From Steroidobacteraceae bacterium (GTDB lineage: Bacteria > Pseudomonadota > Gammaproteobacteria > Steroidobacterales > Steroidobacteraceae), in assembly GCA_029266835.1 (NCBI GenBank), contig JAQSWD010000005.1:62001-126000 (forward strand): 64,000 bases of DNA. The letters run 5' to 3'. A program made the translations under genes and the position numbers. This document shows, piece by piece, positions 22,263-28,769 of the stretch; positions within the stretch are counted from its first letter, which is position 1, and each line of letters opens with the position of its first letter. The notes under the pieces are model-generated. The model was not told the DNA's origin, ran no database searches, and was given only the letters and a program-made list of their open reading frames with translations.

Positions 22263-23633
22263 TCAAACGTGATGCAATGCCTCTCGGGCGACCTGCATGG
22301 ACTCCTCATGCGGTAGGTCCCGCGCCCGCGTCAGCAGCGACAGATTGAAGTCATTGCGCGGCTTGCGCGACAGGCGCTCCTCGATCAATGCCCTGGCCAG
22401 CGAACGCCGGCCTGCGCGCAATGCGGCTTCGGTCACGGTGAGGTGCAGGAGGTCGCGCTGCGCGTGACTCCCGCCGAAACGCTGGGCGTGGGCGCGGACG
22501 CGCTGCAGTTCGTCGATGGCCACCTCGTAGTCTCGCCGCTCGAAGGCGCACAGGGCATTCGCCATCGGCAACCCCACTTCGCGGCTCATCATTCCATTGG
22601 TATCGGAGCGGCGGGCCGCCGCTTCGAGAGCGGACAGGATGCGCACCACCTGGCGATGGTTGCCGGTCGCGAGAAAAGCCATGATGGCGTGCACGTCGTT
22701 GAACGCGTAGTAACCTTCGTCGCCCAGCGCTTCCCAGCTCGCCGCCAGTTCGGTCCAGCGATCACCGGTGTCGACATTGCGCAGCCGCAGGCGCCACAAC
22801 ATCGCCGAGGCATCCACCATTTCGCCCGCGACACGCGTCGACTGTGGGCGGATGCAGGAGTCGTAGACCTCGAGCGCGGCCGCGTAATCGCAGTTGTCGG
22901 CGTGAAAGAGCGCGAGGTGCCAGTAGTTGTGAAAGGCGAAGAAGTTGTGCTCGCGCCATCCGAGCGCCGTGCGGTTGATCCAGTCGACGCCCGACTGGTT
23001 CTGGCCGCGCATCTCGAACACGTGCGCAACGGAATGGACTGCCCAGACGTCGGCGGGGTTGAGCTCGACGGCGCGCCGGCCCAGTGCTTCCGCTTCATCG
23101 TAGGCGCCGCACTCCTCGAGACCGAAGGCATACATGCCGAGCACCTGGCCGCGCCGGGCATCCAGGTCGGGCCACGCGTGCAAGACCTGGGCGGGTCGGT
23201 CGCGCAGCATCGTCGAGTTGCCCAGCAGGAAATCGAACAGGTGCGCGAACTGCAAGGCCAGCAGGTCGCGCGGATATTCGGCGCAGATGTCGCCGTAGAG
23301 TTTCGCGGCGCCGGCGAAATCGCGCGACAGCCAGGCATGGGCCGCGCCCAGGTGCATGCGCTCGCGTTCGACCGCGTGGCCGATGTGACGCCCCGCGGCG
23401 TCGAGAGCGGAGGCGATGCCGCTTTCCGCACCGAGCTCGCTCGTGGTCGCGAGCAACCCTGCCTTGAAGCAATGCCCCATCACGAACGACGGATCGTTTG
23501 CCAGCGATTCATCGATCGTGGCCATGGGATCGCCCCGGTATAACGCCAGCTGCCCGACGGCGCGTTCGTAGAAATCCAGCGCCGTGCGATTGCCGGCCGA
23601 TACCTTGTTACCGAAGCTGTCAACGAGTTTCAT
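22263..23633 (-). CDS. TTC38-like tetratricopeptide-repeat protein
   Basis: Alpha-helical repeats; HSVAHVFEMRGQNQSGVDWINRT...HNYWHLALFHAD motif. Confidence 0.72.
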   Translation of the reverse strand: MKLVDSFGNKVSAGNRTALDFYERAVGQLALYRGDPMATIDESLANDPSFVMGHCFKAGLLATTSELGAESGIASALDAAGRHIGHAVERERMHLGAAHAWLSRDFAGAAKLYGDICAEYPRDLLALQFAHLFDFLLGNSTMLRDRPAQVLHAWPDLDARRGQVLGMYAFGLEECGAYDEAEALGRRAVELNPADVWAVHSVAHVFEMRGQNQSGVDWINRTALGWREHNFFAFHNYWHLALFHADNCDYAAALEVYDSCIRPQSTRVAGEMVDASAMLWRLRLRNVDTGDRWTELAASWEALGDEGYYAFNDVHAIMAFLATGNHRQVVRILSALEAAARRSDTNGMMSREVGLPMANALCAFERRDYEVAIDELQRVRAHAQRFGGSHAQRDLLHLTVTEAALRAGRRSLARALIEERLSRKPRNDFNLSLLTRARDLPHEESMQVAREALHHV

Positions 23634-23662
23634 GAGGGTCTCCAGTGTCGTCCTGACCTGAA

Positions 23663-23697
23663 GGCGTGACGGTGCGAGGAACAATGTTCCCCGCTGG
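23663..23697. promoter_or_regulatory. Conserved block with perfect dyad GGAACA-A-TGTTCC (copy A)
   Basis: ggcgtgacggtgcgaggaacaatgttccccgctgg; dyad at 23678-23690. Confidence 0.7.
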
Positions 23698-23701
23698 GGC
23701 T

Positions 23702-26700
23702 TCACCCCGGCTGGTAGCTGCAGAACGAGCCCGTATGGACGGCCCATTCCAGGTGGCGGCCGGCGGCCGGGCATTCCCGTGCAATGCGATCGATGGCGTG
23801 TTTGAGGCGCCGCTGCACGTTCACGCGCGCACGCTCGACATTCGAGCCCGCGCGCCGCGCCCGGCCACCCAGGCCGAAGGCCCGCGACAGTTCGGTGCTC
23901 AGCACTTCGAGTTCTTCGCGCGCGGCTTCAGCGGCCGCCGAGTCGTGCCGGCTCTCGGCGTCCTCGATCTCGGCGCGGAGCGACTCCACCCGCTGGCGGT
24001 AATCGCGGCGCGCGCGCTCGTCCAGCAATTCACCACAATCACCGGAATCGACGACCTCACCTTCTTCCGAAGGGCCGGCGAGATCCAGAACGTGAATTTC
24101 GCGGCCCGGCATGGACATCAGTTGCGACAGCATCTGCATGCCACGACTGTCGCGCAGCCGGAATTCACGGCCTTCGCACGCACATACCCAGACTTCACCG
24201 TCGCGCGACAGGCGGAAATAATCCACGGCAGGCAGTCCTGCCGACGATTCCGAGGGCGCCTCCGTCTTCTCCAAGGCTTGCCCGAGCTCGCAGGTGCGGA
24301 CCCTTTCGCCAAGCTCGCCCAGGCGTAGCTCCGAGGCAATGGCGCGCGCCTCGTCGAGCAGTTGCGCACTGCGAGGCGGCTCGTCGCCCGCCTTGCGCAA
24401 GGCCTCCACCCATTCGACCGCGATACGCGCCAGCCAAGGCCGCGCGCCCATGCGGCGTGCGGTTTGCAGCGCGGATTCGAAATACTCATGGGCGGCCTGC
24501 GTCGCACCCAGGAACGCGGCGAGATGGCCGAGGCCACGTGCCACCGGGCCCATCCACCGCAGCCCCATCATTCCCCAATGCCCGCAACGATCACGATACG
24601 GCGCGATCCAATCGTGGGCCAGGCGCGCCAGCCTCTCATCCCGCATCGCCACGAGATATTCACCGACGCTCGACAAGGCGCCCATGTCCGAGAAGCGGAC
24701 GATGTCGCGCAGATATTTTTCGTCGATGGCGCCGGGATCCGGGGCGCGGCCCAGCGCCACCACGCCGGTCGCCAGCAGGTTGGGTTTCAAATAGAGATCG
24801 GACTGCGGCAGATTGGCGCATTGGCGCTCGAGCTGCGTATACAGATCGGCGAGCCTGTCGCGATCGCAGGTGATCTCCGCGAGCTCGAACTGCTGCACGA
24901 GCAGTGTGAGGCTGGCGTTGGTGTCCTGCGCGTGTTCGGCAAACTTCCGCGCGCGCGCGAGCGCGGCATGGGCCTGCGGAAAATCGCCGCGCGTGGTGGC
25001 GCGCATCGCGACCAGGGACGCGGCGGTCCACTGGTAGTGAGGCAGGCGAAGCTGTCCGGCCACCGACTCGCATTGCTCGATGGCGTCGTCGAGGGTGGCG
25101 GCGTCCGCGAGCTCCATCGCATCGACGGCGGAGCGCATGTAACCGCGCATGCATTCGGGAACGTCGCCGAGCTGGCGGGCGAGACGCACGTATTCCTGGT
25201 TGAGCGCCAGCCGCTCGACCGGATCGCCCAGGTCCATGAGAGCCGAGATCGCGCTGCGCAGCGTCTTCAGCAGGGTGTCGGGCTGGCCGTTCGAGCGCGC
25301 GATGCGGATCGCCTCGCGCGCCAGGGCGGCAGGTTCCGCGGGGTCCGCCGCCGGCTGCATGGCGCCGGCGAGGCGCGCCTGCAGGCGCGCGCGCCGGTCA
25401 GTATCGCGTGCCGGCATGCGCGCAAGCGCGCTCTGAAGTAGTTTGACCAGGCGCGCGTCGACCTTGCCGAACGTGAAGATGTTTCCGTAGGTCAGCGCGG
25501 CGTCGGCGAGCAGCTCGGCGTCATTGCCAGCTTCGCCGATGTGAAACGCCTCGGTGCTGTTGCGGCGGCCGGCGTCGAGATCGCCGGCGCGGATCTGCAC
25601 GGCAGCGAGGTCGAGCAGCAGCCGGCCGCGTGAAGCTGCCGCGTCCTGGTCGCCCAGCAGGGTGAGCGCGCGGCTCAGGCATACCGCCGCGTCATCGAAG
25701 GCGTGACGCGCCTCGGCCTCCTGTGCGGCCCGCCGCCACGCGGCCACCGCCTCCGGGCGGGCACCGTCGCCGGATTCTTCCAGGTGTTGGGCCAGCGCCG
25801 CCCACGGCAGCACGGCCTGTGGGTCGGCACGCGCCTGCATGCGCTGCGCTTCCTGCTGGTGAAGCGCGCGCCGCTCCGCTGGCGACAGTGATTCGTGAAA
25901 CGCCTCGCGAACCAGCATGTGCTCGAAGCGCAGGCTTCCCGAGGAGTCCTGTTCGATCAGGCGCGAGGCGAGCGCGGGTTGCAGCCGCTCGTGCAGTTCG
26001 TCCGCCGCGCATCCCGCGGACTTGGCCAGAACCGCCGGATGAAAACTGCGGCCCAGCACCGAAGCCATGCCTAACAGCTCGCGCGTGGCCGGCGGCAGGT
26101 CGGCCGCGCGCTCCAGGATGGCCATGCGCATGCTCGCGGGCGCGCGGCGCAAACTACCGCGAGCCTGGTAGAGCTCCACCACTTCCGCGAGGTACAGAGG
26201 GTGGCCCTCGGTCAAGGTCACGAACTCGGTGAGTTGCTGCTCGAGAGGACGCGCGCCGGTGCAGGAGGTCACGTACTCGCGTACTTCATCGCGATCGAGC
26301 CGCCGCAATCCAAGCTGGATCGAGCCGCGGCGCAGCCGCGCGATGATGTTGCCGATGCGAGGGCGCTGGATCTCCGCGTCGCGGAAGGTGCCGATCACCA
26401 GCGCGCGCGAGCCGTGCAGCTGGCGCATCACGAACTCGAGCAGCGCGAGTGAATCGGCGTCGGTCGCGTGCAGGTCTTCGAGCACGAGCACCAGTGGCGA
26501 GTGAGCGGATGCGCACACCAGCAGCGTCGACACGGCATCCATGAGCCGGAAGCGCGCCTGTTCCGGTTCGAGCCGCGCGGGAAGGAGCGACGCCTCGGGT
26601 ACCAGCTCGGGGACGAGTTCGCCGATGGGCGTCATCAGATGGGGATGTTGGGCCAGCGCGGCGCGGCCACAGTCCTGCCCCAGGATGGACCGCAACACCT

Positions 26701-26989
26701 GGATCCACGTCCAGTAAGCCGGTGCGCCCCCGGCCTCCCATGCGAACCCCCAGTGGATGGGCACGCCAGCCTGCGAGGGCAGGGTGGCGAACTCGGCTAA
26801 CAAGCGGCTCTTGCCGATGCCGGGCTCGCCGCTCACCAGGCAAAGCGTGCCGCGGCCGCCGCACGCCGCGTCGAGCGCGCTGGCCAACGCCGCCCGTTCG
26901 CGGGAGCGGCCGACAAAAACGCGGCCATGGCGGGTTGCTGCTTCGGCGTGCAATGAAGGGTTCTCCAGCGATCCGTGCGAAGTGGCCAC
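23702..26989 (-). CDS. Large AAA/STAND-like ATPase with helical repeats and conserved C-terminal module
   Basis: VFVGRSRERAALASALD, SGEPGIGKSRLLAEFA (Walker A), LVLVLEDLHATDADSLALLEF (Walker B); C-term FRLRDSRGMQMLSQLMSMPGREIHVLDL...RARVNVQRRLKHAIDRI...HTGSFCSYQP; GTG start. Confidence 0.82.
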   Translation of the reverse strand: MATSHGSLENPSLHAEAATRHGRVFVGRSRERAALASALDAACGGRGTLCLVSGEPGIGKSRLLAEFATLPSQAGVPIHWGFAWEAGGAPAYWTWIQVLRSILGQDCGRAALAQHPHLMTPIGELVPELVPEASLLPARLEPEQARFRLMDAVSTLLVCASAHSPLVLVLEDLHATDADSLALLEFVMRQLHGSRALVIGTFRDAEIQRPRIGNIIARLRRGSIQLGLRRLDRDEVREYVTSCTGARPLEQQLTEFVTLTEGHPLYLAEVVELYQARGSLRRAPASMRMAILERAADLPPATRELLGMASVLGRSFHPAVLAKSAGCAADELHERLQPALASRLIEQDSSGSLRFEHMLVREAFHESLSPAERRALHQQEAQRMQARADPQAVLPWAALAQHLEESGDGARPEAVAAWRRAAQEAEARHAFDDAAVCLSRALTLLGDQDAAASRGRLLLDLAAVQIRAGDLDAGRRNSTEAFHIGEAGNDAELLADAALTYGNIFTFGKVDARLVKLLQSALARMPARDTDRRARLQARLAGAMQPAADPAEPAALAREAIRIARSNGQPDTLLKTLRSAISALMDLGDPVERLALNQEYVRLARQLGDVPECMRGYMRSAVDAMELADAATLDDAIEQCESVAGQLRLPHYQWTAASLVAMRATTRGDFPQAHAALARARKFAEHAQDTNASLTLLVQQFELAEITCDRDRLADLYTQLERQCANLPQSDLYLKPNLLATGVVALGRAPDPGAIDEKYLRDIVRFSDMGALSSVGEYLVAMRDERLARLAHDWIAPYRDRCGHWGMMGLRWMGPVARGLGHLAAFLGATQAAHEYFESALQTARRMGARPWLARIAVEWVEALRKAGDEPPRSAQLLDEARAIASELRLGELGERVRTCELGQALEKTEAPSESSAGLPAVDYFRLSRDGEVWVCACEGREFRLRDSRGMQMLSQLMSMPGREIHVLDLAGPSEEGEVVDSGDCGELLDERARRDYRQRVESLRAEIEDAESRHDSAAAEAAREELEVLSTELSRAFGLGGRARRAGSNVERARVNVQRRLKHAIDRIARECPAAGRHLEWAVHTGSFCSYQPG

Positions 26990-27072
26990 ATCGCCAATCG
27001 GGGGCGCGATCCTACTTCATGCGCCCCCTTCTTCGATAGGACGGGTGAGGGCAGACGAGAGTGGATAGGCAG

Positions 27073-27107
27073 GCGGACGGGCCGATCACGAGGATCGGCC
27101 CGTCCGC
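27073..27107. terminator. Perfect 14-bp hairpin downstream of the 27127..27798 gene
   Basis: GCGGACGGGCCGAT-CACGAGG-ATCGGCCCGTCCGC; no clear T-run. Confidence 0.6.
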
Positions 27108-27126
27108 TCGGCCACTTCCGATGCGC

Positions 27127-27798
27127 TCAGCCGATCGAGTGTGGATCGAGCGGCAACCGCGCCTGCGCAGGGAGGGTCACCGCGACCTCGAAGTTCCGCG
27201 CAACGAACGTCGCCTTCGGGCTGATCACGCGCGCGTTGGCCAGATCCGCGTACGCGGCACCGGTGTCGCCCGCCAGCCAGTTCATCACCGCGCGGTTGGA
27301 GTAGGCAGCCGCGGCGATCTCGTTGGCCTGACGGACCTGGCTTCGATCCGACAGTTTGACGGACGAGCGATTCCGCGCGGCCATGTCAACGGCCGCGTCA
27401 CACGCCGACCGGGCATCCGTCCAGTTGTGCTGCAGCGAGCGCAGCACGCACAGGTTCGTTTGTTCGCGCGCCGAGTGCACACGATCACCGATCTGGCGGC
27501 TGGCCTTCTCGATGCGGCCGTCGACGAGCGCCTGACCGCCCGGCGCGTCCAGGAAGCTGGCGAGCACCAGAGACTGGCGCGTTTCAGCCACGCAGCGAGT
27601 GGACTTGGACAGGTCGCGCCGGGGCAGCATGATCGACTTGCCCGGAGGCCCACCGTGACGAATCCGGGCCTTGCCGTCCGTGGTGCACGCTGCGGCGCTG
27701 GAGGCGCCGGCATCCGCCGCGGCAACGAAATTCGTCGCCGCGAAGTTGCACAGCAGGACGAGGGTGGCCGATGCCACGAGAGACTTGTGAGGGAACAT
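27127..27798 (-). CDS. Secreted small TPR-like protein of unknown function
   Basis: Signal peptide MFPHKSLVASATLVLLCNFAATNFVAAA; NEIAAAAYSNRAVMNWLAGDTGAAYADLANARVI. Confidence 0.65.
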   Translation of the reverse strand: MFPHKSLVASATLVLLCNFAATNFVAAADAGASSAAACTTDGKARIRHGGPPGKSIMLPRRDLSKSTRCVAETRQSLVLASFLDAPGGQALVDGRIEKASRQIGDRVHSAREQTNLCVLRSLQHNWTDARSACDAAVDMAARNRSSVKLSDRSQVRQANEIAAAAYSNRAVMNWLAGDTGAAYADLANARVISPKATFVARNFEVAVTLPAQARLPLDPHSIG

Positions 27799-27838
27799 GA
27801 CAATTACTCCTTGAAGGTTGGTTGGTTTCCAATCCAGA

Positions 27839-27873
27839 GGCGTAACGGTTGCCGGAACATTGTTCCGCGTTGG
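27839..27873. promoter_or_regulatory. Conserved block with perfect dyad GGAACA-T-TGTTCC (copy B)
   Basis: ggcgtaacggttgccggaacattgttccgcgttgg; dyad at 27854-27866; gapless alignment to copy A. Confidence 0.7.
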
Positions 27874-28025: not shown

Positions 28026-28769
28026 ATGAGCAGAGTGTCGATAATTGCACTTTGGTGCGCATTGGCCATGACGCAAGCGTTCGCGCAGGATGCGCCCACT
28101 CCAGGTGGCGCTTACATCGGCTACTACCAGGAAAGTCCGGTCACCAATCCGGAGGATCCGGTCCCCGGTGCTATCTACTTGCGGTTGCCCGCCACCGATG
28201 GAGCCTTCTCGGGCGACATGTACTTCACGTACGTGGGCTGCCAGAGCAGCAACGTCGGCAGCGTGTCGGGCCGCAAATCCGGCGCGGCGCTTTCGGGCAA
28301 CTGGTCAGGCAGCGTGGACGACTCCGCGCAGCGCGGTGCTTTCACGGGCTCGTTTGACGCCGCGAACGGCTTCTACACCGGCACCTATGACAACGCGGGC
28401 GGCAAGCAGCACCGCGATCTCAGTCCCTGCATCGAGTACTACATCGCTCCCGGGGGCACCTGGGCGCTGTTTCCCGTCGAGCGCAATCATCCCGCGGGTT
28501 TCGAGATCCGAGTGACACCCAATGCCGCGCGCTGGGCGCGCAATCCGCAGGCCGGGGGTTCCCTGGTGACCATCTTCGATGCCGCTATGCTGGCTTCCGC
28601 GCAGGGCAACGCCATCGTCTCGCAGACTCTGCTGGATTCCGACTCGCACATTTTCAGCCTGAGCCAGGTCACGCTGGTTCGAGGGCGCGAATACGTGCTG
28701 TCGGTCGCCGTCATTGATGCAAGCGCTGAGCGGCTGGCCTTCGGCAGCAGGCGTTTCGTCGCGCAGTAG
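28026..28769 (+). CDS. Secreted hypothetical protein
   Basis: Signal peptide MSRVSIIALWCALAMTQAFAQ; no recognised domain. Confidence 0.6.
   Translation: MSRVSIIALWCALAMTQAFAQDAPTPGGAYIGYYQESPVTNPEDPVPGAIYLRLPATDGAFSGDMYFTYVGCQSSNVGSVSGRKSGAALSGNWSGSVDDSAQRGAFTGSFDAANGFYTGTYDNAGGKQHRDLSPCIEYYIAPGGTWALFPVERNHPAGFEIRVTPNAARWARNPQAGGSLVTIFDAAMLASAQGNAIVSQTLLDSDSHIFSLSQVTLVRGREYVLSVAVIDASAERLAFGSRRFVAQ

Follow-up and report, generated by a model that had tools for sequence, protein, structure and literature searches.

A palindromic three-part operator accompanying a STAND/TPR-type ATPase in a Steroidobacteraceae bacterium and in distant bacteria: a putative regulator-operator pair

In a Steroidobacteraceae bacterium, two genes that flank the gene for a large ATPase are each preceded by a closely similar palindromic block. 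This arrangement raises the question of whether the blocks are operators and, if so, which protein reads them. The locus lies in a stretch of 64,000 nucleotides that was analysed as a whole and is called the window here; its features are listed in Table 1. The ATPase whose gene lies between these two is likely to have the palindrome and its flank as its cognate operator (probability about 0.82), with the binding itself, the sign of the regulation and the inducer being inferred.

An earlier note, made from the sequence alone, had placed the two blocks at positions 23663-23697 and 27839-27873 and described a gapless alignment and a perfect 6+1+6 dyad. All of this held: the blocks align without gaps, 27 of 35 positions are identical, and GGAACAWTGTTCC is present in each. 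On the minus strand both blocks read GGAACAWTGTTCC-N4-ACCGTYACGCC, equivalently GGAACAWTGTTCC-N7-GTYACGCC, and they end 29 bp before the start codon of the TTC38-like gene and 40 bp before that of the secreted-protein gene. The open reading frame of the former could begin further upstream; the start at 23633 fits a ribosome-binding site and the operator. On the opposite strand, some 160 bp away from operator 2, lies a divergent gene for another predicted secreted protein without a Pfam family (28026-28769), which could share the regulatory region.

Such a pair might also arise by chance, or by duplication of a promoter that has no regulatory role. Perfect 6+1+6 dyads are common in the 64-kb window, where many repeated dyads were listed, and a duplication would align the flanks as well. 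This explanation is all but excluded. The exact 13-bp palindrome was observed twice in the 4.1-Mb assembly, with the copies 4.2 kb apart, versus 0.05 occurrences expected from size and composition; with the palindromes in register, 15 of the 22 flank positions agree (P = 7e-5). Comparative data already contradict it too, as the block was recovered beside orthologues of the ATPase in other genera. With up to three mismatches allowed, the 28-mer has no occurrence other than these two in the assembly, which is 87% complete; extra copies in the missing part are not excluded. In 58 relatives the bare palindrome occurred eight times, in unrelated sequence and every time without the flank. A REP/MITE repeat element was also considered and rejected, because the genome holds just two copies. 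The sole palindrome with one mismatch in the genome is GGAACAATCTTCC at locus L018 (G000:C151:10297-10309).

Table 1. Positions of the putative regulator, its domains, the putative operators and the proposed target genes in the window
Feature	Coordinates	Strand	Description and basis
Putative regulator	23702..26989	minus	STAND/TPR-type ATPase, 1095 aa, GTG start, C-terminal CT module
P-loop NTPase domain	26411..26917	minus	AAA_16 (PF13191), residues 25-193; Pfam match
CT module	23702..24268	minus	Predicted DNA-binding part, residues 908-1095 with stop codon; co-occurrence with operator
Operator 1 (putative)	23663..23690	minus	GGAACATTGTTCC-N7-GTCACGCC; in the gap from the ATPase stop codon to the TTC38-like gene
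Operator 2 (putative)	27839..27866	minus	GGAACAATGTTCC-N7-GTTACGCC; precedes the secreted-protein gene
Target gene 1 (proposed)	22263..23633	minus	TTC38-like TPR protein, 456 aa; TPR_14, E=1e-7
Target gene 2 (proposed)	27127..27798	minus	Predicted secreted TPR-like protein, 223 aa; no Pfam family

The length of 1,095 aa that had been given for the ATPase also held. Its AAA_16 match is strong (E=3e-25; 90 bits vs a cut-off of 32.6), and the Walker A motif, GEPGIGKS at residues 54-61, is intact. No TPR was matched by Pfam in the window protein; its orthologues gave weak MalT-like TPR matches (36.7 bits vs a curated cut-off of 45). Neither Trans_reg_C nor BTAD was detected by Pfam in the window ATPase, and no C-terminal GerE/LuxR HTH (PF00196) was matched in it or in its orthologues. 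Its last 180 residues or so, termed the CT module, matched no Pfam or NCBIfam family. Assignment to the TOMM system kinase/cyclase fusions (TIGR03903) was rejected, since the match was confined to the ATPase region and reached 113.9 bits vs a curated cut-off of 705.75. A strong GC-rich inverted repeat (cggacgggccgatc...gatcggcccgtccg, 27070-27112) separates the secreted-protein gene from that of the ATPase; it is probably a terminator and suggests that the ATPase gene has its own promoter.

The ATPase was not found in other genomes of the genus, nor in nearly all of the relatives sampled. Full-length orthologues are present in two genera of another family (genomes G1040 and G1178, with 38% and 35% identity). 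When the 28-mer, with three mismatches or fewer, was sought in 396 genomes of the order, 13 sites outside the window were returned; most resembled chance matches, and three stood out, two in G1040 and one in G1178. One operator follows the stop codon of the orthologue by 74 bp in G1040 and by 9 bp in G1178, and in each case faces a fatty-acid hydroxylase gene that is unrelated to the target genes of the window. In G1178 the hydroxylase gene is followed by a homocysteine S-methyltransferase gene; in G1040 the latter lies 0.55 Mb away with its own copy of the operator. The operon is thus split in G1040 and both halves have kept the operator, a classic sign of a common regulator. At the G1178 site (L167:9971-10013), a GTTAC box flanks the dyad on both sides (GTTACGCC and GTTACATC), and a symmetric operator form with four half-sites may exist.

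Relatives of CT occur in Actinomycetota, Chloroflexota, Myxococcota, Pseudomonadota, Bacteroidota, and Binatota; none was found in the phage collection or the viral contigs searched. The module is C-terminal in STAND-TPR proteins and in TolB-TPR proteins (Halomonas, Chelativorans, Bacteroidota); it is N-terminal, ahead of the ATPase domain, in a small number of Myxococcota/Binatota proteins. CT therefore changes position and partner among proteins, as expected of an effector domain. The loci with the swapped CT-ATPase architecture are L040:9001-9576, L042:5113-5673, and L082:7565-8137.

The gap after the CT gene of locus L050 contains CTTACAATGTAAG-N7-CTTACGC, and this sighting prompted a scan of all CT loci. 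When the dyad was combined with NTYACGC[CA] at spacers of 0-24, 23 matches were obtained at spacer 7, and 1-10, mostly 1-6, at the others. With [CG]TYACGC[CA], 20 matches fell at spacer 7 vs 0-4 at each other spacer from 0 to 15; control DNA gave 0-3 matches per spacer, including two at spacer 7, one of which should be L166, the true G1040 operator that had not been removed from the controls. The final pattern matched 18 times in 66 CT loci (1.03 Mb), compared with 0.1 per shuffle, and had no match in 111 control loci (0.73 Mb). It was tuned on the same CT loci, and the spacer scan with [CG]TYACGC[CA] is the fairer test. The sites that emerged only once the pattern was fixed include those in L023 and L024 and a second one in L044. 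A generic pattern that left out the ACGC box and asked only for a dyad and a repeated half-site was dropped as too noisy, and repeated 6-bp dyads within CT loci proved to be noise.

What these results show is the operator itself, how it is built, that it co-occurs with CT genes and which way it points. It consists of the 13-bp dyad, a 7-bp spacer and a third half-site; the half-sites of the dyad are 8 bp apart, and the third is 20 bp from the first. Versions with CTCACATCGTGAG or CTTACAATGTAAG adjoin CT genes in Halomonas, Chelativorans, Bacteroidota, Myxococcota, and Actinomycetota. Within 150 bp of the end of a CT gene lie 13 of the 18 final-pattern sites, all 13 of which point away from that gene and into the next. 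The operators accompanying the window ATPase and its two orthologues have a dyad with GGAAC and a third half-site that reads GTYAC; the remaining operators have CTCAC, CTTAC or GTTAC at all three half-sites or nearly so. Between the CT gene and a TTC38-like gene in L041 (9526-9558), two three-part sites overlap on opposite strands (CTCACATCGTGAG... and GTCACTGCGTGAG...). No recognisable operator was found at most actinobacterial and Chloroflexota CT loci, and no strict site at the plasmid CT loci of Nonomuraea and Streptomyces that served as a test set; two plasmid loci used to test the actinobacterial clade had no operator. The CT proteins of such clades may possibly use another site. The operator was not found in viral contigs, and a literature search did not find the operator words in a bacterial context.

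Operator presence follows the phylogeny of the module. On a tree of 64 CT modules, two clades have the operator throughout, namely a supported one with 12 of 12 members (95/93) and the clade of the window with 3 of 3 (99/85); outside these two full clades it occurs in G095 alone, and a large actinobacterial clade and Chloroflexota are without it. Its distribution requires three changes on the tree vs 14.5 with shuffled labels, and none of 500 shuffles was as low. This bears on the proposal, made in the earlier note, that both genes are controlled through this operator by the ATPase or else by an unlinked factor. In the second version, an unlinked dimeric transcription factor would bind the palindrome. 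Ordinary dimeric regulators typically have a 6+1+6 dyad as their site, and neither Pfam nor NCBIfam recognised a DNA-binding domain in the ATPase. However, the operator tracks CT genes across phyla while the targets change, and its presence is complete in two CT clades, making an unlinked factor very unlikely. The ATPase is instead favoured as the regulator because the operator follows its orthologues and CT genes although the neighbouring genes differ. The comparative evidence thus supports the ATPase option, in the absence of binding data.

A further alternative is that the block is an ECF-type sigma promoter, with GGAAC as -35 and CGTY as -10. GGAAC...CGTY does resemble ECF promoters, and the element is located 30-40 bp before the start codons. 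However, the gap between GGAAC and CGTY is 14 bp, and the usual spacing of ECF promoters is 2-3 bp longer. Perfect dyads are not expected in a sigma element, both arms of the dyad change together in related sites (CTCAC/GTGAG, CTTAC/GTAAG), and the position of the proposed -10 reads TGTT in G1040 and GGTT in G1178. A sigma promoter is therefore very unlikely, and it was rejected on the short spacing and the co-varying dyad arms between clades.

Which part of the ATPase would contact the operator can be inferred from its relatives. STAND-TPR-CT and TolB-TPR-CT proteins have only CT in common and are accompanied by the same operator layout; thus, CT most likely reads the DNA. The C-terminus had been thought to look winged-helix-like, and support for this is weak: hhalign of CT against the SARP winged helix of relatives gave P = 0.08, and the top Foldseek match, the SARP domain of AfsR at rank 1, had a weak E=0.13 and a poor superposition. 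No significant PDB match was found in the structural search with the CT models, and a PDB sequence search gave nothing usable, its matches being helical chance similarity. The predicted secondary structure is EEE-H-H-(coiled coil)-H-H-E, i.e. strands, two helices, a coiled-coil pair, two helices, and a hairpin; two AlphaFold2 models had pTM values of 0.55 and 0.63. A helix motif tracks the half-site, with VNV[QR]RR accompanying GGAAC and, typically, VTWRIR accompanying CT[CT]AC. For this reason, the predicted helix 143-165 of the CT model may be regarded as the best candidate for a recognition helix, although it was predicted by a model and there are no binding data.

STAND proteins with TPR sensors are known to switch from a closed ADP form to a multimerising ATP form (PMC6468293), and activation by AfsR involves its engagement of a site overlapping the -35 element (PMC10936776). 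If MalT and AfsR are taken as analogues, the TPR region of the ATPase would sense an unidentified inducer, the P-loop module would swap ADP for ATP, and the protein would multimerise. Its CT modules would then bind the three-part site, i.e. two inverted half-sites and, 7 bp further, a third one that is directly oriented ([CG]T[TC]AC and then GCC). That CT binds directly, that the effect is activation, that a multimer binds and that an inducer acts are all inferences. The operator, just upstream of the target start and pointing at the target gene, would overlap the -35 region, so activation appears likelier than repression.

The ATPase might also bind the operator and repress its targets, e.g. 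until an inducer releases it. A dyad near a promoter is a classic repressor layout as well, and no clear -10 element was found at the operators. On the other hand, MalT and AfsR, which are STAND/TPR regulators of like architecture, are activators (PMC10936776; for the switch of the MalT family, PMC6468293), and repression is considered unlikely. The preference for activation rests on analogy and position alone, without expression data.

The genes facing the operators are mostly those of two enzymes. A fatty-acid hydroxylase gene is faced in L023, L047, L050, L051, L063, G1040, and G1178, and a homocysteine S-methyltransferase gene in L044, L045, L067, and G1040 and, as judged by eye, probably in L024; the latter gene is second in the operon in L047, L050, and G1178. 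A methyltransferase follows the operator in L028 and a LuxR-type protein in L168. Among the sites found later, that of L023 faces the hydroxylase and the second site of L044 faces the methyltransferase. These target families were not found near CT genes without the operator, and a literature search found nothing that joins fatty-acid hydroxylase and homocysteine S-methyltransferase with such a regulator. In L041 (Actinomycetota), CT gene, operator and TTC38-like gene (39% to that of the window) are in the same order as in the window. The name TTC38 comes from the earlier note; only the TPR repeats and the homology of the window and L041 genes were confirmed.

The earlier note had also held that its hypothesis would be refuted if relatives carrying these genes lacked the block upstream. 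On its face this is the case, as TTC38-like and secreted-gene homologues without the block exist. The secreted protein has homologues in 28 other genomes of the bacterial family, without the operator where checked and, as read by eye, mostly behind a LysR-type gene. Of the 14 closest TTC38-like homologues checked in the family, 13 are divergent from an open frame that looks like a SARP-type regulator; Trans_reg_C and BTAD were confirmed in one of these regulators, L109. Nearly all relatives whose homologues lack the block are without the ATPase too, and most of the closest TTC38-like homologues there have a SARP/BTAD regulator of their own; the element thus goes with the regulator rather than with the target. 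The idea of a site tied to the target genes was rejected, because homologues of both exist in the family without it. TTC38-like genes are thus found time and again next to large regulators that differ in DNA-binding type. In L103-L115 and L133-L151, most TTC38-like homologues have TTCACG direct repeats 11 bp apart upstream, in agreement with the published SARP rule (PMC10936776). An extra CTCACG and then TACAAA often occur in these upstream regions, and some genomes have a second copy of the repeat elsewhere.

Several known regulators resemble the proposed system in part. The SARP/BTAD regulators in the window's family are also large and adjoin the TTC38-like gene, and their half-sites likewise contain TCACG; unlike the window ATPase, they have N-terminal Trans_reg_C and BTAD, a divergent gene order and 11-bp direct repeats. 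AfsR and other large SARPs (SARP-NOD-TPR activators) share with the window ATPase a NOD ATPase, TPR and a DNA-binding effector, the last two being inferred here, and the AfsR site, like the window operators, is close to the start codon and probably over the -35 region. However, AfsR has an N-terminal OmpR-type domain with BTAD and binds 11-bp direct repeats (PMC10936776), whereas in the window system the putative effector is C-terminal and the site is a dyad with a third half-site. SARP-type direct repeats spaced by 11 or 22 bp are not the layout of the window operator. MalT and other LAL proteins likewise combine NOD, a TPR region and a C-terminal effector, the last two being putative in the window protein. 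MalT carries a C-terminal LuxR-type HTH, and CT is unrelated in sequence to the MalT effector. TolB-TPR-CT relatives match the TolB-TPR part of HilA (residues 19-338 of L050 vs profile positions 122-436); unlike HilA/CadC-type regulators, they are without the N-terminal winged helix and have CT at the C-terminus.

The known kind to which the window protein is assigned is that of STAND/TPR transcription regulators, and CT may conceivably be a new DNA-binding family. In all likelihood, although without binding data, the window unit belongs to a wider and apparently undescribed set of regulator-operator pairs. A bolder reading, which we favour only by a narrow margin, is that CT is an undescribed DNA-binding module of STAND-TPR and TolB-TPR regulators in several phyla that reads a three-part operator, and that its ancestral targets were fatty-acid hydroxylase and homocysteine S-methyltransferase. 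In the lineage of the window, the half-site would have changed from [CG]TYAC to GGAAC, the presumed recognition helix would have shifted alongside, and the regulator would have been redirected to TPR-type genes. A regulator family without a domain model is now matched to an explicit and testable DNA site. The common site ties the regulator to the two enzymes in unrelated bacteria and points to a regulon, so far undescribed, that would link the metabolism of membrane lipids with that of methyl groups. The switch of half-site in step with the helix motif amounts to a natural experiment on the joint change of an operator and its reader. In G715, a 151-aa open frame (L026:1459-1914) contains the C-terminal half of CT only, and this half may possibly be a separate domain.
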